Part shown: one piece after another, positions 4,023 through 28,661 of the stretch
How positions within the stretch are numbered: the stretch's first letter is position 1
Layout: each line of letters opens with the position of its first letter
NCBI GenBank assembly: GCA_937872535.1
Contig: CALMTC010000016.1
Coordinates: 1-41,080 of the forward strand
DNA: 41,080 bases
Direction of reading: 5' to 3'
From: an uncultured bacterium
GTDB lineage: Bacteria > Patescibacteriota > Gracilibacteria > Absconditabacterales > Absconditicoccaceae
Notes under the pieces: model-generated
Told to the model about the DNA's origin: nothing
Databases searched by the model: none
The model's input: only the letters and a program-made list of their open reading frames with translations
Position numbers and translations under genes: made by a program

Positions 4023-4084
4023 ATGTTGTTTTTTTTGTCTGGAAAAGTAGAAATTCCTTGTATTTATTTTTATGTTTAAACCAG

Positions 4085-4474
4085 ATGAAAAAATTTTTGT
4101 GATTGTCGTTATTTTTAGTTTTTGGTGTATTGGCTGGTTGTCAAAAAACTGAAGTGGCTATGCACGATAATTTTGCTCAGTGTTTGACTGATAAAAATGT
4201 GAAAATGTATGGGACGGAGCGATGTCCACACTGTAAAGAACAGAAAAAACTTTTTGGAGCTAGTTTCAAAAGAGTTACCTATATTGATTGTGATAAGGAT
4301 TCTATGAAATGTAATTTGGCTGGAGTTGAATGATTCCCTACGCGAATTGGGTTGGATGGTGTAAAACGCGCTGGTACACAACCTCTTGAAGATTTGGCGA
4401 AAAACTATGGTTGTTCACTTGATGAGGCAAGTTATGCAAGTGGGGCTAGTGTTTCTTGATCTACGCAAAATTAA
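4085..4474 (+). CDS. Thioredoxin-like lipoprotein
   Basis: This small secreted lipoprotein (129 aa) has a Lys-containing hydrophobic signal and a lipobox VLAGC (Cys at about residue 19). It is followed by a thioredoxin/glutaredoxin-like fold with the active site YGTERCPHCKEQKKLF and a strand VTYIDCDKD. The CPHC motif and spacing resemble the thioredoxin-like domain fused to VKOR in other bacteria. It is therefore likely a membrane-anchored thiol oxidoreductase acting outside the cytoplasmic membrane. TGA codes for Gly in the signal (KKFLG), at VEG-FPT before the expected cis-Pro loop, and near the C-terminus. A terminator follows at 4503-4529. The cysteine-rich prepilin at 25925 is a possible client, by inference only. 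Confidence 0.8.
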
Positions 4475-14635: not shown

Positions 14636-14911
14636 ATGCCAGCTATCACAGTGAATCTACCAGAAAAACTTATTGCTCAAGTAAAAAATCTTGCTAAACA
14701 AAAAAAAACTACTCAGAGAGCTATTTTTGAGGAAAGTATTGAACAGTATTCTAAGGAAGCTAGAAAAGCTAAAATGGTAAAAGAAATGAAAGAATATGCT
14801 GAGTATCTTGATTCTGATCCTGCTATGAGAGCTGAGATTCAATTTCTTGTCAATGCAGGGAATAAACAATATTTAGAAATGTTAGAAAGAGTGGAAAATG
14901 GTTGATATTAA
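14636..14911 (+). CDS. Antitoxin of a MazEF-like pair (ribbon-helix-helix type)
   Basis: This 91-residue protein begins MPAITVNLPEKLIAQVKNLA, a strand followed by a helix as in ribbon-helix-helix DNA-binding antitoxins, with a helical acidic C-terminal half likely to wrap the toxin. It overlaps the toxin gene start by 14 nt, the usual sign of a translationally coupled toxin-antitoxin operon. The family probably also represses its own promoter; TTGACA at 14577 lies just upstream. The TGA at 14903 is Gly here, so the protein ends GGY at TAA 14909 rather than at the TGA. The antitoxin subfamily is not certain. Confidence 0.8.
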
Positions 14912-15263
14912 AAAATATGATATCTGGCTTGTTGATTTGGACCCTACTAAATGACATGAGCAGAATGGAAAAAGACCTTGTATTGTATATCAAAATAATC
15001 TTATTTCTACTCAGGGAGTTTCTCAAACATTTTTGGTCATACCACTTACTTCTCAAGGTAAAACAGAATCGCCTGTTACACTTTTTCTTAGTAATTTTGA
15101 AAGATATTGATTATCATTGCCTAGTTTTGCACTGTGTTTTCAGATGAAAGCTGTTGATGTATCATGATTTGTTAAAAAAATTGGGAGTATTGGTGATGCA
15201 AAAACAAAAGAGTTACTCAAAATAAAACTTTTCAATACACTTGATTTTGATGATGATTTCTAA
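14898..15263 (+). CDS. mazF: MazF/PemK-family endoribonuclease toxin
   Basis: MazF toxins cut RNA at short sequence motifs. The 121-aa product begins MVDIKKYDIWLVDLDPTKGH, the hallmark strand with the catalytic-site loop. It continues with EQNGKRPCIVYQNNL and the second conserved region TFLVIPLTSQGK, and ends with a basic helix-strand part. The Gly of the PTKGHEQ loop is encoded by TGA, so a host with the standard code would make only a short fragment. The pair is therefore adapted to the code of this organism. It follows the antitoxin with a 14-nt overlap and ends at TAA 15261. Confidence 0.88.
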
Positions 15264-15379: not shown

Positions 15380-15820
15380 ATGGCTAGTGCAACTGAATAT
15401 TCACTAAAATATATCAATCTGTATCCTAAGACTGAAAAAGAACTGAGAGCAAAGTTGATGGAAAAACACTATGGAGAAGAGGAAATCGAGAAGACGATTA
15501 CTTATCTCAAACGCAAAAATTATGTCAATGATGAGCTTTATTGTGAACTTTATATCAATTCTCAGTTGATAAAAAAAGGTAAGCCTCTCTATGCTGTAAA
15601 ACAAAAGCTTCTTCAGAAGTGAGTGGATAAAACTCTAGTTAATAAATCTTTGGCTCAGTATAAAGATGAAATTGATGACTGAGTTTCTCAGACTATTGAA
15701 AAACTTATCCAGCAGCGAAAGAAAAAGGGCTTGGAGTGATTTGAAATTATTCAAAAATTGATGATGAGAGGGTATTCTCTGGAGCTTATTAAAAAAGTTT
15801 TGAATAAAAGAGAGGAGTAG
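15380..15820 (+). CDS. recX: RecX-family regulatory protein
   Basis: RecX modulates RecA filaments. The 146-aa product carries the three-helix repeats of the family: EYSLKYINLYPKTEKELRAK, YGEEEIEKTITYLKRKNYVN with the typical DELYCELYI, and LIKKGKPLYAVKQKLLQKG-V. A last repeat is at the C-terminus (KGLEGFEIIQKLMMRGYS). TGA = Gly at 15620, 15680 and 15737 closes the frame. Start ATG 15380 follows a TTTTATTTTCTGG box at 15353-15365. recA is not in the window. Confidence 0.85.
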
Positions 15821-15881
15821 TTTTTGAAATATATATTTTTCAGAATAATAAATTTTTTTATGAAGAATAGATAGCTGAAAT

Positions 15882-15910
15882 TTGACAAAAAAAAAGTTTT
15901 TTGATAGAAT
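15882..15910 (+). promoter_or_regulatory. Strong sigma-70 promoter of the pilus block
   Basis: TTGACA (15882-15887), a 17-nt spacer and TAGAAT (15905-15910) form a near-consensus promoter 30 nt upstream of ATG 15940. Confidence 0.75.
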
Positions 15911-15939
15911 GGAGCTGTTTATTTCTGTTTTCTTTTGCG

Positions 15940-17277
15940 ATGGGAGATCCAAAAGAGTCTCAAACTCCTGAAATAAGCATTGATTTAGATCAACTTATTG
16001 ATGGTTCTAGTAGCGAAAAAAAGTCTGAAAATATGGCTGTTGCTTTTTCTGATAAAAAAAATGATACTGTAAATTTAGCTCATATTACTTTAGAGTCTGC
16101 AAAAAAAGATACTATTGTTTTTTGAGATAGTCGTGATTCTTATGATGTTTGAAGTTTGAAAGTTTCTTATTGGAAGCGAATTTTTTTCTCTTTTTGATTT
16201 TTGGCTGTTACTGTTATTTCTCTCTTGATTCTTATTTTTTATCAACGATATTTTACTGAGGCATCGAAAAACCATGTCAGTGAAAATGCTTTACCAGTGA
16301 TCAATGCTTATAAAAAAGTTTCTCGTTTCGTTGATTTTTATTTGCCTTTTCAGTGATTCACTTACTATAATGACTTGCCTTTTGATAATAAATCTGCTGT
16401 TCTCAGTATTAATGATGTTGTGGGGAGCGATTCTATTAACTATATTGATAAAAAGGATATTTTGACTAAAGCTAGTGGTATTCTAGGCACTCAGCTGGTA
16501 AATATCTATAATGATGTCGATACTACTAAGAAAAAAATCTGAAGAAATGCTTTTTTTAGTAAGGAAATTGAAGATCTGATTATCGACCCAGATGCTTCTT
16601 TGCAAAGATCATTGCTTTCACTCGAAGCAATCAAATTTAGTACAGCACTCAAGATTTTTTCTTATCTTGAAAGCTTTTTGACTCAATTTTCTCAGAGCTA
16701 TGGCTTTTCTTTGCCGACCGTCAGAGTGGCTATTGATGGATTGCTTCGTAGAGGAGAGAAAGATTTGACTGCTTATCTTTTCTACTGTTATTTTAATCCT
16801 TATGAAAATCCTGAAACTTGTACAAAATTTGGTGATTTTGATGCTTCATATCGCTATGCACAAGAGCCTAACTTTGATTCTCGTTTTTTTATTTCACTGA
16901 TGAGGTTTGTAGATCAAAAACTAGAAAATACAGATTTTCCTAGTTTTAATCTTTCATTTCAAAATTTTGATCCAACTTCGAGCAATATTACGATTCAAAT
17001 TCAGATCAATACTTTTCAACAAGATGAACTTGAACTTTTGTCTAAGTGAATTTTTAACCCTCATATTTTTATGGTCACTCATTTGATACAGCTTCTGAAA
17101 CAAAGTCTTATTATTGTTTGAGAAAATATTGATTTAACGAAATTGAAGGTGACTAAAAAAACTTTAAAGATTGGATGAATTGATTTTGTGGTCAATACAT
17201 CATCTTTGACCTTTGCTGTTCCACTTCAAAAGACTACACAAAGAGAGATTTTTGATTATGTGAATGAAGATTTTTAA
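15940..17277 (+). CDS. Bitopic membrane protein next to pilus genes, 445 aa
   Basis: I do not recognise the family. It has about 80 polar, acidic cytoplasmic residues, one strong membrane segment (FFSLFGFLAVTVISLLILIF, about residues 85-105), and about 340 residues outside the membrane with mixed helix and strand. It heads a same-strand run: 17288 (bitopic), pilB, pilC, 21889 (bitopic). The position and single-anchor topology suggest a role like the PilN/PilO alignment subcomplex, but it is larger than those and I see no diagnostic motif. ATG 15940 was chosen because the promoter at 15882-15910 would place transcription start after the codon at 15901. TGA codons occur throughout. Confidence 0.75.
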
Positions 17278-17287
17278 TTTTTTGTAG

Positions 17288-18703
17288 ATGAGAATGAATA
17301 ATCAGAATAAACATATTATTTCATTTATTGAACGATACAAGAGCCAGGAATTAATTTTTAAAATTGTTTGGCCAGTTTGTGTTGTTGTTTTTTTTATTCT
17401 GATTTGACTGAGTTTTTCTGTTTATTTGACGGCGACTGAAATGAATTCTCATTCTGCTGATCTTATCAATGTTTCTTATTATTCTCTTGATCAAGTGAAG
17501 AGTAATAATTCTACAAAAAATATTCTTAAAGATGCTAGAAATTTGCCTGATTTGGTAAGATTGTCTCGTAATGCAGAAGAAGAAAATACTAGATTGAATG
17601 CTTATTTTGATTCGCTTCAACAACCTTATAAGTCTTTTTTACAGTATTTTTTACTACCACCACTGAATATTTGGGAAGATCCTTACACAAAAGCTATTGA
17701 TACGAAGCTTATTTGACAAAGATTTTTGGCTGAAAATCCATTTAGCGATTTGGCTTTACTTGGTCGCTGGAGTGACTTTTTCCGTGTGGTTTGAAATGGT
17801 GAATTTTATAATGAAATTACTGATATCTCAATTTCTCCTCTTCAAGAGCAGGATAATTGATATTTTTCTTTTGAATTAAATGTTTCTTTTCTGGCTCCAA
17901 ATAAACGCGCATTTTTATTTTTGATTAATGATTTGTCGTTTAGTTCTAACAGAGAAAATATTTCTTTGGTTCATGAATTTGTTTATAATCTTCGAGAATG
18001 ACTGAGAATTTCTTATCAAAAAACTCAAACTGGTACGCTTTTGACAGGAAAGAGTCTTGATGATTTTATCGCTCGTTCGCTTATGGATTGGGTTCATGGT
18101 AAGCAAGATATTTCTTTCTTGACTGAGGCTGTTATAGAAAATACTATTAAAAAAACTGTTGAATGTAATAATGAAGATCTTCAATATTGTGCTTTTCTTT
18201 TCAGACAAAAATATCAAACTGTTCCTTCTTTAGCTTATAGTGTGTGAGATTTGAAAAATCCAGATAAAAAACCTTTGTTGAAAAAATTTTTTCAGAGAAT
18301 GGCTCCAGTTATGAATATAAAAAGATTTACTTTTACTCCTCAGAGAAAAACTTTGGGGCAAGCTTCTCAGTCTTATGTTGGGCAGATTCAATTTCAGATT
18401 TTTGGTAGATGACTTATTAAGTCTGATTACGATAGAATTTCTTTGGCTCTTGCGAAACAGTGTTTTTGACCTCAACAAGATTTACCACTTACTGTGCAAT
18501 TGGCTAAAAAAACTGTCGATCAGGCTGTTGTTGACTTGGCTAGTATCAGTACTTTGGATACTACTAAGAATAAAAAACTGCAAGAGCTGACTGATATCCT
18601 TAATAACTATGAACTCACTTTTGATCAGCTTACTTATTACAATAAAACTATAAAAATCTTTGAAATTTTTAGAATGCTGGATGATGGTAGATTGTGTAGA
18701 TAA
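17288..18703 (+). CDS. Bitopic membrane protein next to pilus genes, 471 aa
   Basis: I do not recognise the family. One membrane segment lies near residues 25-47 (KIVWPVCVVVFFILIGLSFS), followed by about 420 extracytoplasmic residues. It begins 10 nt after the previous gene, so both are in one operon. In PilMNOP systems PilN and PilO are adjacent bitopic proteins, and this pair has the same arrangement with much larger outer domains. ATG 17294 two codons on is an equal start choice. TGA codons (for example 17407, 17714, 17792) are read as Gly. Confidence 0.75.
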
Positions 18704-19232
18704 CTTTTTTCTGTAATCTCTAAAATTTATTTTCTGGAAATCGTTTCTTAAAATACAGACGCAATAAATTGCGTCTCTATAGAAAATAATTTTTTGGTCA
18801 ATTTACAAAATTCAAAATCAATACAAATTTTCCAAAACCCTCGCCGGGTGGCCATACTTTTTTGTCATTGCCACAAAAAAGTATGCAAAAAAACTCTAGC
18901 CAACGCAAAATCTCGTCTTTACTCTCTTCCTTACTCCTTGACTACTCACTATGTTTTTTCTTGAGTTTTACCGACTCACCATCAAAGGATCGTCTCGTTT
19001 TTCTTCCTCTATCACGAGGTTGGACCTCAGACAAGGTTGCGTTGGCGTTGATAACGAGTGATCTTTTGCTGGAAAAAAATTTCGAAGAAAAAGAAATTTA
19101 AGGTAACGGTCTCTTTGATAAACTCTGCGAACGGGAGACTTGTTTTTTTTGGAGTAGTTTGTCTGGTTTTCTTTTAAAATGTCAATCTTTTTTTCAGTTA
19201 TCAGAATATAAAATTATAGTATTTTTGAGGTT
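18704..19232. other. Long non-coding gap with inverted repeat
   Basis: This is the longest stretch without a convincing gene. It holds an AAAATTTATTTTCTGG box (18722-18737), a perfect inverted repeat (18853-18885), and a less AT-rich block (about 18840-19140) that can be read as a short open frame at 18862-19101. I do not accept that frame as a gene, because it has no start signal and a serine/leucine-rich composition unlike the neighbours. The block looks like a degenerate dispersed element. A weak hairpin followed by a T-run at about 19109-19150 could end transcription. Confidence 0.5.
18853..18885. repeat. Perfect 13-bp inverted repeat
   Basis: CATACTTTTTTGT (18853-18865) and ACAAAAAAGTATG (18873-18885) are exact reverse complements with a 7-nt loop, CATTGCC. 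Confidence 0.85.
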
Positions 19233-19253
19233 TTGAGTAGAATTCAGTATGAT
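19225..19253 (+). promoter_or_regulatory. Promoter of pilB
   Basis: TTGAGG (19225-19230), a 17-nt spacer and TATGAT (19248-19253), 28 nt before ATG 19281. Confidence 0.55.
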
Positions 19254-19280
19254 ATTTTCTTTATTTTTGATGGTTTTCCA

Positions 19281-20594
19281 ATGTTGACTGTACAAGATTT
19301 TAAACAGAAACTTAATGATGCTATAATTCAGGCTGATGTTATCAAGATTTTTGATAATCTTTTGACGATAGCAGTCGAGGAGGGGGCTTCGGATATTCAT
19401 ATTGAGCCATTTGAAAATTATTCTAGAATTAGGATTAGAATTGATGGTGATTTGATCGAGTTGGTGCAATATCCAAACAATATCCACGAAAGTATTATTT
19501 CTAAATTTAAAATTGAGTCGGGGCAAATGAGACCTGATGAAAAAAGACTGCCTCAAGATGCTAGAGTTTCTACAGTTACTTTGACTAATAAAGAGATCGA
19601 TCTGAGAGCGAATACTTTGCCGACGGTTTGGTGAGAAAAACTTGTGATGAGAATAGTGGATAAGTCAAAAAAAATTCCGCTTATTAACGAACTGGGATTA
19701 GAGTGAATCAATGCTGAGTTGCTTTATAAAAATCTGGCTTATCCAAATGGAATTATCTTAAATACTGGTCCTACTGGATCTGGAAAAACAGCAACTTTGT
19801 ATGCTTGTCTCGATTTTATTAACAAGGTCGATGTGAATATTATTACTTATGAAGATCCAGTGGAAGTCAAACTTTTTGGGCTTAATCAATCTCAAATCAG
19901 AACTGATATCTGATTTACTTTTGCTTCGGGGCTGAGAGCAGCACTGAGACAAGATCCTGATATTATCATGGTCTGAGAAATCCGTGATAAAGAGACACTT
20001 GATATGGCTATGGATGCTGCCATGACTGGTCATCTTGTCTTGTCTACGATTCATACGAACTCTTCTGTCGAAACTATTACGAGAGTTTTCAATCTCGGTG
20101 CGAAGGCTTTTATGCTGGCTGGTACTTTTAATGGAGTCATCGCTCAGCGTCTTTCGAAAAAAATTTGTTCTCACTGTGCTGTTGATATCAATATTAAAGA
20201 TAAGCCAGCATTTCAGTTTGCGAAACAAGCTTTTGCTACGATGGATAGAAAAATGCTTAAAGATGAAATTGTTCGTAGAGGTATCAGTTCTGAACAATGG
20301 ACTAAATTTATCAATGATGGAATCACTTCTTATGGATCTGGTAAAGATCCTCAGAGTGGTGAAACTTGCTCTGTTTGCTGATGAAGTGGTTATAAAGGCA
20401 GAATAGGAATTTTTGAATTTATGGATTATAATGAGGAAGTGAAAAAAATGTTATTGGATGGGAAAAGTGCTTTTGATATTGAAAAATATGCGCTTCAGTA
20501 TGGGATGATTAATCTTGAAAGAGATGGAATATTTAAAGTGATTAAGGGACAAATTTTTATTGACGATGTCTATAAGATCGTAAAACACCATTAA
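19281..20594 (+). CDS. pilB: Type IV pilus assembly ATPase PilB/GspE-like
   Basis: This hexameric secretion ATPase powers pilus extension at the cytoplasmic face. The 437-aa product starts almost directly at the N2 domain (LLTIAVEEGASDIHIEPF) and lacks the usual N-terminal N1 domain; classical PilB is about 560 aa. It has the Arg/Asp-box region (MRPDEKRLPQDARVS), Walker A ILNTGPTGSGKTATLY, EDPVEVKLFGLNQSQ, Walker B with the VGEIRD sequence (TGA = Gly), and the His box MTGHLVLSTIHTN. A zinc tetracysteine is present (CSHC at about residue 295 and CSVCGGSGYKGRIGIFEF). The zinc site and the GRIGIFEF end mark PilB/GspE rather than PilT. pilC follows. Confidence 0.92.
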
Positions 20595-20613
20595 GTAAGT
20601 TCTGAGATATTTT

Positions 20614-20676
20614 CCCTTCGACAGGCTCAGGGACCGGGAGGTAGTTAACTAACAACGATTGGTAAACTTAGGTAAT
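20614..20676. repeat. Long copy of the CCCTTCGACAGGCTCAGGG repeat
   Basis: CCCTTCGACAGGCTCAGGGA continues through CCGGGAGGTAGTTAAC and TTGGTAAACTTAGG, matching 8206-8270 along about 63 nt. It lies between pilB and pilC. Confidence 0.8.
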
Positions 20677-20748
20677 GAAATTCTCTTCATTGAATTCAAA
20701 AACTTTTTCATCGATTATTTACATTTTATTTAAAAAATTTTTATTCTG

Positions 20749-21864
20749 ATGGCAATCTCTCTAGTAAAAAAAACATCACTCAAAGCTGATTTTTTTGAAA
20801 AACTAGTCATTAAGCTTCAATCTCCTGGATTGAAACACAAGACTGTGTTTTTCAGACTTTTGGCTGTAGCTCAAAAAGCTGGACTTGGTGTCAGAGAGTC
20901 GCTTTTTTCTATTTTGAAATCTGAAAGAAATAGTGCTTTGAAAATGATTATTTCGGATTTAATTAAACAGCTGACTCAGTGATTAAGTTTGGCTGAATCT
21001 TTGAGAAATCATGGTTATTTTTTTTCTTCTGAAGAGATAGAACTTGTCAAAGCTGCTGAGTTGACTGGTACGATGCCAGAAACTTTAGATTCTATTGCTC
21101 GTGAACTCGAAAACTATCAAAAAATTATTGCTAGAATTAGGTCTGCTTTGACTTATCCTGCTGTTTTGATTGTTTTTACTTTGATTGCTGTTATTATTTT
21201 ATTGACTGCTGTTGTACCAACAATTGTTTCACTTTTCCCTGATAAAACTGCTTTGCCAGCTGTGACATTGTTTATGATTGGAGCATCAGATTTTATGATT
21301 TCTTATTGGTATTTGGTGCTTGGAACTGTTTTTCTTTTAGTAAGTGCTTTTTCATTTTTATATAAACATTTTTTGCCTTTTACTATTTTTATTGATAAGC
21401 TTACTATTTCTCTTCCATTTCTTTCTGATGCTGTAAAAACTTTTTATCAGTATAGATTTTCAAAATTATTATCAAATTTTTATAAAGCTGGAGTTTCTCC
21501 TATTATTGCCCTAGAGCAGATGAGTAATATTTTTGACAATTATTGGTATAAGAAGAAAATGATTGAAATAAAGGGAGACTTGGAAGCTGGTTTTGGTTTT
21601 TCTGACTCGATGGAAGGCTCAGATCTTTTTGATCCTTTACTGGTTCAGATTATAATGGTTGGTGAAAATACTGGTAATATAGCTGATGTTCTTGCTACTA
21701 TGGGGCGTTTTTATAGAGATATTTTTAGGTCGAAAGTTGATATGCTGATGAGTTTTATAGAGCCATTCTTGATGGCTTTTATTGCTTTGATTGTTGGTGG
21801 AATTATGGCATCTATCTTTTTGCCTATGGCTGATCTGGTTAATGTGATTGGTAAATCGTTTTAG
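20749..21864 (+). CDS. pilC: Type IV pilus inner-membrane platform protein PilC
   Basis: PilC/GspF is the polytopic platform on which PilB works. The 371-aa product has two repeated T2SSF domains, KTVFFRLLAVAQKAGLGVRE in the first and FYQYRFSKLLSNFYKAGVSP in the second. Typical helices are present (ELVKAAELTGTMPETLDSIA, IIMVGENTGNIADVLATM), with three to four hydrophobic segments (about 130-155, 180-205, 345-370). One TGA (20980, QLTQG-LSLAE) is Gly. The ATG directly follows AAAATTTTTATTCTG with no room for a ribosome site, so the message may be leaderless or share the pilB transcript. Confidence 0.9.
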
Positions 21865-21888
21865 GTATTTATTTTTTATTGCTTATCG

Positions 21889-22659
21889 ATGAGGTTTATC
21901 TTGGAATTATTACTTAATATTTATTTTTACATCGGAGTGATAATTTTTGGTTTTATTATTTTTTATTTTGATCTGGGTGATGTGAGCTCATCTTTTCAAG
22001 CTGTGCTTCTTTGACAGGAAAATATCAAAATAGGTACTCATTATGTTCAAAAAAAATCTATTGATAATACTGTTTACGCTCAGACTTTGACTAATATTGC
22101 TTTGTGAGAAAGAAGTCTCGGAGGTATCCAAGGAGCTTATTCTGATGTTTTAGTCACGATTCAAACTATGGAAGTTCTTATTTCTACTGATATTATTGCA
22201 CTTTTAGAATGAGCTACTGAGAGAAGAAAAGTACTTAGTTCTTATAATGGTCAAGTTGATACAGCTCTGGCTAGAAGTCAAGATATGCTGCTTTCTCTTC
22301 AAACTGATGTTACGGAGTATACTAATGAAATGACTGTTTGTGATAATGCTAAGAAAGTTTGAGATACTAATTTTTTTCAATGACTGAGTCAGTATGATAT
22401 TAAAGCTGCTCAAGATGGTATCAATCAATCTATCGAAAATGGTCAATGTGCTACTAAATATAGAATTCTTCTTAATTCTCAAAGAATACTTCTTTCAAAA
22501 CTTGTTTTTTTGAGAGCTTTACTTGTTCAGAAAAATGATTTGATCGTTACTAATGAAGATAATATCATTATTCATCTCGATTTTTTCAAAGATGAATTAC
22601 TCGAAAAACTTATCAATCTGAGAGACCAGCTGAAAAACTATAATGCTGAAACTATATAA
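21889..22659 (+). CDS. Bitopic helical protein after pilC, 256 aa
   Basis: I do not recognise the family. An N-terminal membrane segment (LLNIYFYIGVIIFGFIIFYF, about residues 7-27) is followed by a mostly helical, Gln/Asn/Ser/Thr-rich domain with two Cys (VCDNAKK, GQCATKY) that may form a disulfide. It starts 24 nt after pilC on the same strand, so it is probably part of the pilus operon. It resembles neither a prepilin (no FTLIE-type leader) nor a known minor component. Confidence 0.7.
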
Positions 22660-25206: not shown

Positions 25207-25872
25207 TTATATGTTTTCGAGAGAATCAGGTTTTGAAAATTTGATTTCGGAAGTAATGAGAACTGTAATGATGCCATGTAAGAATATTCGTAGGGGAGCT
25301 CGAGCAATAGAGTAGAATAGCAGAGGACTATTTTGGAATTGAGCAGCCAAGATAAGCAGAGAATTGGTATTGAAAATAGTGGGTCATAAAATAGCTGTTT
25401 GAGCTGTCAAAATGGCACTAATAACTGTGAGTGGGATGATGATAATTTTGAGAAAAATTCTAGTATTTTCGTCTGATGGGAGACTGATGTATATTTTTGA
25501 TTTTGAGAAAATGAGTACCATGAGGACTAAGTAAGTGAGTATGATGATTGTGAGTTTGCTGTTTGTTAGGAAAAAATCTAGTTGACCAAAAGTTACACCT
25601 AAGAATGCAATCTGTGAAACTAATGGTTTGATCGCAAAACTGATTGTATCTATGGTGCTTCAGAGAGCTACACAAATGATGGTGAGTAAATAATTTCCTA
25701 AAATAATTCTCATCATTTTGTCTATCCCTATAGCGAATGCAAAAACGAATAAAACTCCAATAAGTCCAGCGATGATGTAGTTCATTACTTCTCGATTCAT
25801 TACATTGAACATTGAAAAAATAAAATTCTGGATATTGTTTGTATTTTTTTCCCGAAATACTATGGGTTGCAA
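25207..25872 (-). CDS. Polytopic membrane protein, 221 aa
   Basis: I do not recognise this protein. About five hydrophobic segments are visible (NYIIAGLIGVLFVFAFAIGI, MRIILGNYLLTIICVALG, KLTIIILTYLVLMVLIF, FLKIIIIPLTVISAIL, RIFLHGIITVLI). TGA = Gly at 25660 joins the two halves. It is divergent from the prepilin gene with 52 nt between starts, so the two share a control region. It may begin at one of several Met codons (25872 or the later MFNVMNREVM). Confidence 0.65.
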
Positions 25873-25885
25873 CTAGGCTATTTTT

Positions 25886-25914
25886 TTGTACAACGACATT
25901 ATTTATTGTATCTT
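25886..25914 (+). promoter_or_regulatory. Candidate prepilin promoter giving a leaderless message
   Basis: TTGTAC (25886-25891), a 17-nt spacer and TATCTT (25909-25914). The expected start of transcription is near 25921, within the TTTTCTGG box and only a few bases before ATG 25925. Confidence 0.45.
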
Positions 25915-25924
25915 ATTTTTCTGG

Positions 25925-26608
25925 ATGAACTTTGCAAATAAAAAAAGTTTTACTTTGATTGAAATTGTTGTAGTAGTTATGCTCTTGGGAGTCGCTTTGA
26001 TTGCTGTTTTTCAATCTCTTAACTATGCTTTTCGTTGATCTGAACAAACAAGATATGAGACTATTGCTTTGAATCTAGCAAGAGAGTGAGTTGAACTTGT
26101 TGGTCAGATAAGAGATAGTAATCGACTTCAGTGGAGCTGAAAAACAGATCTATGTTGGTTGAAATCTGATCCGTATCAAGATTTTGGTGGTATTGGTTGT
26201 GAAAATGATGCTTGGATTCAAAGTGGCTGGTATGCTTTAGTAAATTACAAATTTGCAGATCAAACTGTCTATCGTCTAGATTTTATGACGGGTGCTAGAT
26301 TTGAATTCTCATGATGAATTAATGCCAGTGATTTAAAATTTTCTTTGTGTTTCTTGAATGATGGTTGATGGTCTAGTTGTCCCGATAATTATCCAACTTG
26401 ATCTCAATGAAAATATTGGAGAGCTGTAAGAGTTTTAGGGCTTTATGATAAGGTCTGAACAGGTAATTTTTTATCTTGTCCAACTGGAAATACTGGCCTT
26501 TGCTGAGACTGAACTGCTAAAGAGCTTCGTTTTTGTGTTGTGGTGGGCTATGAATTATTGAGTAGAGGTAAGGTAGAACTTTGTAGTATTCTTACTAATT
26601 TCAAATAA
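25925..26608 (+). CDS. Type IV prepilin-like protein, cysteine-rich
   Basis: The 227-aa product has a short basic leader and the class III/type IV prepilin motif KKSFTLIEIVVVVMLLGVAL. The residue before the cleavage Phe is Ser rather than the usual Gly, but Glu at +5 is present. The N-terminal helix anchors and assembles pilins. The globular part contains eight Cys (DLCW, GCEN, SLCF, SSCP, LSCP, GLCG, RFCV, ELCS), an even number suited to disulfides, and many aromatic residues. Many glycines are TGA. It could be a major or minor pilin. PilB and PilC are 5-6 kb away; no prepilin peptidase is in the window. Confidence 0.85.
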
Positions 26609-26676
26609 GAAAAATTTATATTCTGGTGAATGTTCTTTAAATATATAACATAATAAATTGGTTCTCTCTCTATACG

Positions 26677-26709
26677 AAAATCACCATCCAATTTTCTGGT
26701 GACTTTTTA
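26677..26709 (+). terminator. Possible terminator after the prepilin gene
   Basis: TCACCA (26681-26686) pairs with TGGTGA (26697-26702), followed by CTTTTT. The gap 26609-26867 also holds a TTTATATTCTGG box at 26615-26626 and no gene I can support. Confidence 0.5.
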
Positions 26710-26737
26710 CTATGAATATTTTTTCAGCTTTTTAGCC

Positions 26738-26765
26738 TTGTTTTCATCTGAAAAAATTGTATACT
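26738..26765 (+). promoter_or_regulatory. Candidate typA promoter
   Basis: TTGTTT (26738-26743), a 16-nt spacer and TATACT (26760-26765), about 95 nt upstream of the ATG. Confidence 0.4.
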
Positions 26766-26867
26766 ATATGCAATTTCAAGAAAACTTTTGTTTACTTAAG
26801 TGTGGCTTTGGTTTTCGGGTGATCGTGTTTGCGGTTATACCAGAATTTTTATTTTTACAGAAAAAAT

Positions 26868-28661
26868 ATGGCTTTGAGAAATATTGCAATTATTGCCCAT
26901 GTAGATCATGGGAAAACTACTTTAGTTGATCAGCTTTTGAAACAATCTGGTACAATGAAAGCTGCTGAAGATCAGCACTTGATTATGGATAATAACGATC
27001 AGGAACGCGAAAGAGGAATCACAATTTATGCGAAAAATACAGCAGTTCGCTATGAAGGAGATACAATCAATATCATTGATACTCCGGGACATGCTGATTT
27101 TTGATCTGAAGTGGAACGCGTTCTTCGTATGGTTGATTGTGTGGTTTTGGTAGTGGATGCTTATGAAGGTCCTATGCCTCAGACTAAATTCGTTTTGAAA
27201 AAATCTTTAGAACTTGGTTTGAAACCTATTGTTGTGCTGAATAAAATAGACAAACCTACAGCAAGACCAAAAGAGGTAATAAATATGCTTTTTGATTTGT
27301 TCATTTTGCTTGGAGCAAGTGATGAACAAGCTGATTTTCCAGTAATTTATGCTAGTGCTAAAAATGGATATGCGCTTAAAAATCTTGGAGATGAACCTGT
27401 AGATATGAAACCACTTTTTGAAGCGATCAAAGAGTATGTGAAACCTGCAGCGGATCTTTCTGACAAGCCTTTTCGTATGCAAATTGCTAATTTGGCTTAT
27501 GATGATTTTGTTGGAAGACTTGGGATTGGTCGTGTCTATGAAGGGACGGCAAAAACTGGTCAGCAAGTGACTATTATCTGAAATGATGGAGTTAAAAGAA
27601 CTGGTAAAATCTCAAAAATTTATACAACACTTGGTTTACAGAGAGTAGAATCTCAGGAAGCGAGCTGTGGAGATATAATTACGATTGCTGGAATTCCGAA
27701 TATTTTTGTCTGAGAAACTGTAGGAGCTGGTGATATCGAAGCTTTGCCTACTATTTCTATTGATGAACCGACTCTTCGTATGGAATTTCTCGTTAACGAT
27801 TCTCCGTTTGCTGGTAAAGAAGGAAAATATTTGACTACGAGAAACCTCCAAGAAAGATTGACTAAAGAACTTGAGACAAATGTCGGATTGAAAGTAGATA
27901 TGACTGATAGTAAATTTATTGTTTCTGGAAGAGGAGAACTTCACTTGTCTGTTTTGATTGAATCGATTCGTAGAGAAGGTGGTGAACTCCAGGTTTGACC
28001 TCCAGAGGTTATTTTTAAGATAGAAGATGGAAAAAAACTTGAACCGATAGAAAGTTTGGTGATTAATATTGAAGATCATTTGGCTGGTAGTGTGATAGAA
28101 GCACTTTCAAATCGTAAATGACTCATGACTTCAAATATTTCTGAAAATGGTCTGACTACTATGGAATTCGAGATACCAACCAGATGATTACTTTGATTTA
28201 GATGAGAATTTATTCTTTTGACGAAAGGTGAAGGAATTATGTATTCATCTTTTTCTCACTACGATGATTATAAAGGTGAAATTCAGAAGAGACAGTTTGG
28301 TTCTATGATTTCTGGAAATACTGGTGAAGTGATGAAATATAGTATTTATAAACTTCAGGATCGTGGACCTATTTTTGTTGACCCAGCTCAAAAAATTTAT
28401 GAGGGAATGATCGTGGGTGAACATCTTAAAGGATGAGATCTTGTTATCAATTTGACGGTGAATAAGCAGCTTACTAATGTCAGAAATAGCTGAAACGATG
28501 AAGCTATGCGTTTAGAACCTATTGTTCATTTGACTTTGGAAGATGCGCTTGGTTATATCGGACCAGATGAACTTGTCGAAATCACTCCAAAAAATATTAG
28601 AATGAGAAAAAAATATTTGACTGAAAGCGCTAGAGCTTTGGCTAAAAAAGGGACTAAGTAA
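26868..28661 (+). CDS. typA: Ribosome-associated GTPase TypA/BipA
   Basis: TypA is a translational GTPase of the EF-G class that acts on ribosome assembly and stress responses. The 597-aa product has G1 [11 protein letters not shown], switch [13 protein letters not shown]3 [12 protein letters not shown] (TGA = Gly), and G4 [13 protein letters not shown]. Domain II follows with [15 protein letters not shown], then EF-G-like domains ([50 protein letters not shown]) and the C-terminal domain unique to BipA ([17 protein letters not shown]). Domain order and length are normal. I chose ATG 26868 on family alignment. Confidence 0.96.

Follow-up and report, generated by a model that had tools for sequence, protein, structure and literature searches.

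A GspI/PilV-like minor prepilin with eight cysteines kept and lost in pairs in an Absconditabacterales bacterium

The analysed stretch of DNA (41,080 nucleotides, the window) encodes at positions 25925–26608 a prepilin whose cysteines are kept, gained and lost across its orthologues in whole pairs. The protein is probably a minor pilin of the GspI/PilV class, belonging to a type IV pilus built on a type B platform and standing at or next to the pilus tip, with four disulfides between neighbouring cysteines. The features of the gene are as follows.

25925..26608, + strand: GspI/PilV-like minor prepilin, eight Cys (code 25 translation, N_methyl match, profile, model fold)
25925..25948, + strand: class III leader MNFANKKS, cleavage expected before Phe9 (translation)
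25955..26131, + strand: long N-terminal helix, residues 11–69, with conserved A-x-NLAREG-x-E ... IRD(T/S)N (alignment, model)
26153..26200, + strand: Cys77 and Cys92, putative disulfide 1-2 (paired conservation)
26348..26380, + strand: Cys142 and Cys152, putative disulfide 3-4 (paired conservation, model)
26477..26503, + strand: Cys185 and Cys193, putative disulfide 5-6 (paired conservation, distant relatives)
26534..26584, + strand: Cys204 and Cys220, putative disulfide 7-8 spanning the final beta hairpin (both Cys in 39/39, model)

Read with genetic code 25, in which TGA codes for glycine, the interval is a single open frame of 227 residues, 11 of whose codons are TGA; with table 11 no ORF of at least 60 residues covers it. 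The genome that holds the window (1.25 Mb, 23 contigs) needs this reassignment for its genes, and the code agrees with relatives recorded as candidate division SR1, Absconditabacteria or Gracilibacteria. A scan of 25750–26900 returns one promoter-like site, where 4.2 are expected, and no terminator. The hallmarks of a prepilin looked for in the class III leader test are present, namely a short basic leader, a hydrophobic helix and Glu at +5 of the FTLIE that follows the leader, with Phe at +1; the Pfam N_methyl model is narrowly above its cut-off (21.9 versus 21.2 bits). The Gly usual at -1 of type IV prepilins is absent, and the codon there (AGT, 25946–25948) specifies Ser; Gly at this site is not taken as defining, as the orthologues vary there. 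The first-pass annotation had described a cysteine-rich prepilin with Ser before the cleavage Phe, and this description is correct: eight Cys are present, at residues 77, 92, 142, 152, 185, 193, 204 and 220 of the prepilin, and Ser directly precedes Phe9.

Orthologues were identified with a profile built from a 30-row alignment (A2) and searched in 49 genomes of the family at E 1e-6. The profile has matches in 44 genomes, and in 39 the best match runs along its length and represents the orthologue; bit scores separate orthologues (at least 128) from weaker matches (at most 74). The helix and the C-terminal strands contain most of the invariant residues, and the head between the cysteines is largely variable among orthologues, the Cys pairs being kept. 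Outside the family genomes, a scan of genome contigs with the pilin as a single sequence found no relative, and an alignment-based scan found 56 loci, 30 of which were taken as a close set (L065, whose start is unreadable, was excluded from the alignment) and the other 26 as a distant set. No relatives were found among viral contigs or among plasmids, and a sequence search of the PDB with the pilin gave eight weak matches, mainly to the N-terminal helix of pilins. The distant relatives L066–L093, found in many Patescibacteria, have NLAREG...IRD(T/S)NW in common, often end in (T/Y/F)(N/D)W and often have Glu or Gln at +1; their sequences suggest a minor pilin family spread through the phylum.

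The residue at -1 could be read in 38 orthologues, the N-terminus of the one in G036 being lost at a contig end, and is Gly in 30, Ala in four, Ser in three and Val in one, with at least seven changes on the tree. Ala is also found at this site in two more of the genome's prepilins. The special standing that had been given to Ser at -1 therefore does not hold, and the residue is, as the alignment has it, a sporadic variant. The accessible text of PMC3244431 states that PilD cleaves at glycine or alanine, and a non-exhaustive literature search found no published case of Ser at -1; processing of the Ser(-1) leader is presumed. A single prepilin peptidase gene is detected in the genome, and its Peptidase_A24 score (22.6 bits) falls short of the 26.5-bit cut-off.

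The case for disulfides is built on how the cysteines come and go. Taken in order, the eight Cys columns carry their Cys in 24, 24, 24, 24, 29, 29, 30 and 30 of the first 30 orthologues, and the neighbours 1-2, 3-4, 5-6 and 7-8 show no disagreement at all; other pairings disagree in five to seven sequences, or in one when made between pairs 5-6 and 7-8. With the head divided into four segments, whose borders were set after the pattern in the first 30 had been seen, each of the 156 cells (four segments by 39 orthologues) holds two Cys or none, never one. The numbers of orthologues with two and with none are 28/11, 28/11, 35/4 and 39/0 along the head, the count for segment II including pairs gained elsewhere (G046, G027, G042); gained cysteines in these three genomes likewise come in pairs, and the total in the head is even in all 39 orthologues. 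Six of the 39 have a single additional Cys, located in the membrane helix or the leader, that does not enter the count for the head. Viewed by single columns, a few of the nine divergent orthologues that complete the 39 seem discordant, with Cys shifted by some residues, as for Cys77/Cys92 in G008 and Cys185/Cys193 in G021 and G044, and this discordance is gone in the segment count. On a tree made without the Cys columns, which is rough and has several weakly supported branches, the segments require a minimum of 5, 5, 4 and 0 pair changes, at least 14 together. Because cysteines are gained and lost in whole pairs, the alignment supports four sequential disulfides, 77–92, 142–152, 185–193 and 204–220. 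Disulfide stabilisation of the head had been proposed from the single sequence, with unconserved Cys in orthologues named as the finding that would speak against it; the 39 orthologues instead back the proposal by keeping their Cys in pairs and losing them in pairs. Many distant Patescibacteria relatives have a Cys pair placed similarly to Cys185/Cys193. By a broad pattern, of whose hits at least one (L087) looks spurious, 21 of the 26 in the distant set have a pair of Cys ahead of the final strands, and the number of head Cys is odd in three of the 26.

The cysteine content had also been called unusual for a pilin. At the Cys rate of the window's ORFs longer than 200 residues, a rate taken from a mechanical ORF list, at least eight Cys in 158 head residues have an uncorrected chance probability of ~7e-5, which favours that view; within its own genome, however, the protein stands at the top of an even-numbered continuum and is no outlier. 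The seven N_methyl proteins of the genome contain 4, 6, 8, 6, 4, 2 and 2 Cys, and a PilX/GspK-like gene beside three of the N_methyl genes encodes 4. Since all eight prepilin-like proteins have even Cys numbers, oxidised heads may be general among the pilins of this genome (G000). A search of the genome for VKOR gave no match, which counts against an explanation by disulfides. A lipoprotein-like, thioredoxin-like protein with the motif CPHC is encoded at 4058–4474, with weak Pfam matches below cut-off, and is a candidate extracellular thiol oxidoreductase. No literature on Candidate Phyla Radiation pilins with cysteine disulfides was found in a search that was thin on subscription journals.

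The predicted structure of the pilin (mean pLDDT 91.2, pTM 0.83) has a helix at residues 11–69 and strands at 101–110, 113–120, 140–143, 149–151, 163–175, 199–210 and 214–224. As had been suggested for checking the Cys pairing, the model was inspected, and by its secondary structure Cys204 would face Cys220 in the last hairpin, formed by the strands 199–210 and 214–224. Foldseek of the model against the PDB gave no match with E < 0.001. With VIA-align, the first four rows are the XcpGHIJK pseudopilus model, XcpV-XcpW, EpsI-EpsJ and XcpVWX (Z 6.0, 6.0, 5.9 and 5.5; rmsd 2.2–2.8 Å over 77–107 residues) and the fifth is 6QVF, the Thermus PilA2 (Z 5.3, 104 residues, 3.8 Å), values in the tool's range for what may be a mere common arrangement; unrelated proteins appear from Z 3.6 down, and the type IV pilus chain 8tj2 scores 2.5. 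The matched pseudopilin chains are unnamed in the output, and their small size (81–116 residues) suggests that they are I-type subunits; XcpV corresponds to GspI. The presumed GspI-type pseudopilins (5bw0, 2ret, 5vtm and the model 9a1f) are the best structural matches and have the long helix and antiparallel sheet in common with the pilin, which differs from them in its 227 residues, longer head and four Cys pairs.

The curated sequence models do not place the protein. It scores 19.3 bits with PilV (TIGR02523, cut-off 52.2) and 14.6 with GspI (TIGR01707, cut-off 44.35), and its scores with the ComGE and GspH models are about as low. The pilin is GspI/PilV-like but is not classifiable as PilV or GspI by the curated cut-offs, and the label carries "like" because these equivalog cut-offs are missed; in this phylum pilins have diverged too far to be named from sequence alone. 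For PilA2 of Thermus thermophilus, EpsI and GspI are reported as close structural homologues, PilA2 having an extra subdomain (PMC6561018), which agrees with the I-type reading of the present pilin. PilA2 is the fifth-best structural match, yet it is no sequence match in the PDB search. GspI, GspJ and GspK form the tip complex of the pseudopilus, as given in the available part of PMC7248040, and PilA2 binds ComZ, a proposed DNA receptor at the tip (PMC6561018). The idea of a tip pilin is thereby kept in a reduced form: the folds of the GspI-J type complexes and of PilA2 hint, weakly, at a place near the tip.

A platform of type B is encoded 4 kb upstream of the pilin, in a locus (15380–22659) made up of recX, two unannotated proteins, a PilB-like ATPase, a GspF/PilC-like platform protein and a 256-residue protein, recX (15380–15820) standing directly before the rest.

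15901..18703, + strand: two proteins of 458 and 471 residues, possible alignment subunits by position only (no family above cut-off)
19233..20594, + strand: PilB/GspE-like assembly ATPase in the platform locus (PilB/GspE models below cut-off)
20749..21864, + strand: GspF/PilC-like platform protein, type B (GspF/PilC models below cut-off)

Most family genomes contain four PF00482 half-domains (E 1e-5), equal to two platform proteins; the exceptions are G004 with six, G001 with three, G007, G009, G015 and G029 with two and G006 with one. All five genomes of genus g18 (G017, G025, G034, G038, G041) have no PF00482 platform match, and this genus, judged from these searches, probably has no type IV pili. 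Of the 49 genomes, 39 have close orthologues of the window-type platform (at least 295 bits) and 41 have a platform of a second type (at most 118 bits). The pilin and the window platform are both present in 38 genomes, the pilin alone in G015, the platform alone in G028 and neither in nine (Fisher p 4.8e-8), G015 and G028 being drafts of 240 and 270 contigs. Correlation with the other platform type is weaker (37/2/4/6, p 0.0004), and the window-type ATPase tracks the pilin less closely than the window platform does, with 36 genomes having both, three only the pilin, five only the ATPase and five neither (p 0.005). These p values ignore shared descent, and five of the nine genomes with neither pilin nor window platform belong to the one genus without a platform match. 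The pilin is associated with one of the two pilus platforms. A PilB-like ATPase of the window type is also encoded in four genomes (G006, G007, G009, G029) that have neither the window platform nor the pilin.

The studied gene lies outside any operon with other pilins or a platform. Elsewhere in the genome, at G000:C16:137.3–140.0 kb, four genes resemble FimT/GspH, PilV/GspI, PilW/GspJ and PilX/GspK, labels that follow gene order and appearance, with an N_methyl match in three of the four. Because this cluster already contains a PilV-like gene, the studied pilin is a second, stand-alone PilV/GspI-like protein of the genome. A weaker second profile match is present in 40 of the 49 genomes, and in G000 it is the cluster gene (137901–138524), at 47.5 against 267 bits. 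Its product has a similar helix motif (AKEGLE versus AREGVE) but two Cys, not eight, has Gly at -1 and sits among other minor pilin genes; it has no sequence match in the PDB, and its type co-occurs with the studied pilin as 35/4/5/5 (p 0.011). A larger pilin of 393 residues with six Cys is encoded on G000:C5. It and the studied pilin are both present in 35 genomes, with the studied pilin alone in four, the large pilin alone in one and neither in nine; the large pilin gene and the window-type platform are no more than 5 kb apart in G003, G013, G021, G030, G032, G036, G039 and G046, and not in G000.

Next to the pilin gene and divergent from it lies a conserved neighbour.

25207..25800, - strand: membrane protein of 197 residues, start at ATG

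The two genes adjoin in opposite orientation in 36 of the 39 genomes, with gaps of 65–780 bases; in G011 they are on different contigs, and the neighbour was not found in G019 or G036. Aligned over 22 of 30 loci, the membrane protein gave no Pfam match above cut-off, and Foldseek gave none with E < 0.001. Considered as a pilus partner, it was rejected: it occurs in 46 of the 49 genomes, nine of them without the pilin and five without a platform match (Fisher p 0.5), and it is probably not part of the pilus. Elsewhere in the window, two small overlapping genes at 14636–15263 resemble, on visual inspection, a toxin-antitoxin pair, the second MazF/PemK-like.

For a GspI/PilV-class minor pilin, the following course can be proposed. 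The eight-residue leader would be removed by the one prepilin peptidase detected, and the mature helix would pack into the type IV pilus on the type B platform. The pilin would stand at or beside the tip and link a larger tip pilin, for which the 393-residue six-Cys pilin is the candidate, to the shaft, and four neighbour disulfides would stiffen the head and shield an exposed region of the pilus. In both GspI-GspK and PilA2-ComZ, as described in the relevant parts of PMC7248040 and PMC6561018, an I-type subunit lies beside a larger tip or receptor subunit, and by this analogy the 393-residue pilin would be a better candidate for the tip or receptor than the studied one. That the studied pilin itself acts as adhesin or receptor at the tip, its stapled head binding a host or prey surface or DNA, is unlikely. 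A head that varies between kept Cys pairs is what binding loops would show, adhesins and DNA receptors are found among minor pilins (reviewed in PMC7248040), and Vampirococcus, an Absconditabacterium, attaches to other bacteria (PMC8080830); the invariant residues, however, lie mainly in the helix and C-terminal strands.

A place in the pseudopilus of a T2SS-like secretion system, and not in a surface pilus, is a quite improbable assignment. T2SS pseudopilins are the closest folds, and the window platform scores higher with GspF (212 bits) than with the PilC models (160 and 153), none of them over cut-off, yet the ATPase of the same locus is nearly equal between PilB and GspE (426 versus 413 bits, neither above cut-off), the fold is common to type IV minor pilins such as Thermus PilA2 (PMC6561018), and two pilus systems are reported for Saccharibacteria (PMC12206443). 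That the cysteines serve metal binding or redox chemistry, and not disulfides, is very hard to credit: eight Cys in a genome without a VKOR match would fit it, but they are gained and lost in whole pairs, over the 14 or more changes counted above, while the rest of the head is kept, the pilin has no CxxC, and its Cys are spread over four separate segments.

A parallel for the minor pilin and its platform is offered by the Saccharibacterium TM7x, which has two type IV pili (PMC12206443), as most genomes of the present family have two platform types. The second TM7x locus contains pilB2, pilC2, pilM2N2O2, recAX and one pilin, with no retraction ATPase, and host binding is lowered by loss of pilB2, pilC2, pilA2 or pilX2, but not of pilV2, according to the accessible portion of the same source. 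In the window, likewise, a second platform locus is found beside recX and without a retraction ATPase, the latter being concluded because the window contig has only one T2SSE match. As recX directly precedes the platform locus here, the comparison suggests that the two loci may be the same kind of system. One may speculate further, though doubtfully, that the pilus of this second platform is the counterpart of T4P-2, the host-binding pilus of Saccharibacteria, and carries a disulfide-armoured tip pair dedicated to recognition of host or prey, formed by the studied pilin and the six-Cys pilin, which would be kept and lost together with the platform throughout the family.

In the portion of the Absconditabacteria pilin literature reached by a search thin on subscription journals, no description of the present pilin was found. 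Paired loss of cysteines, as seen in these orthologues, could serve to map disulfides in uncultured lineages. The studied members of the bacterium's group live on other cells, and for the question of how ultrasmall bacteria that depend on a host recognise other cells and hold on to them, the pilin would be a concrete target for structural and binding tests.
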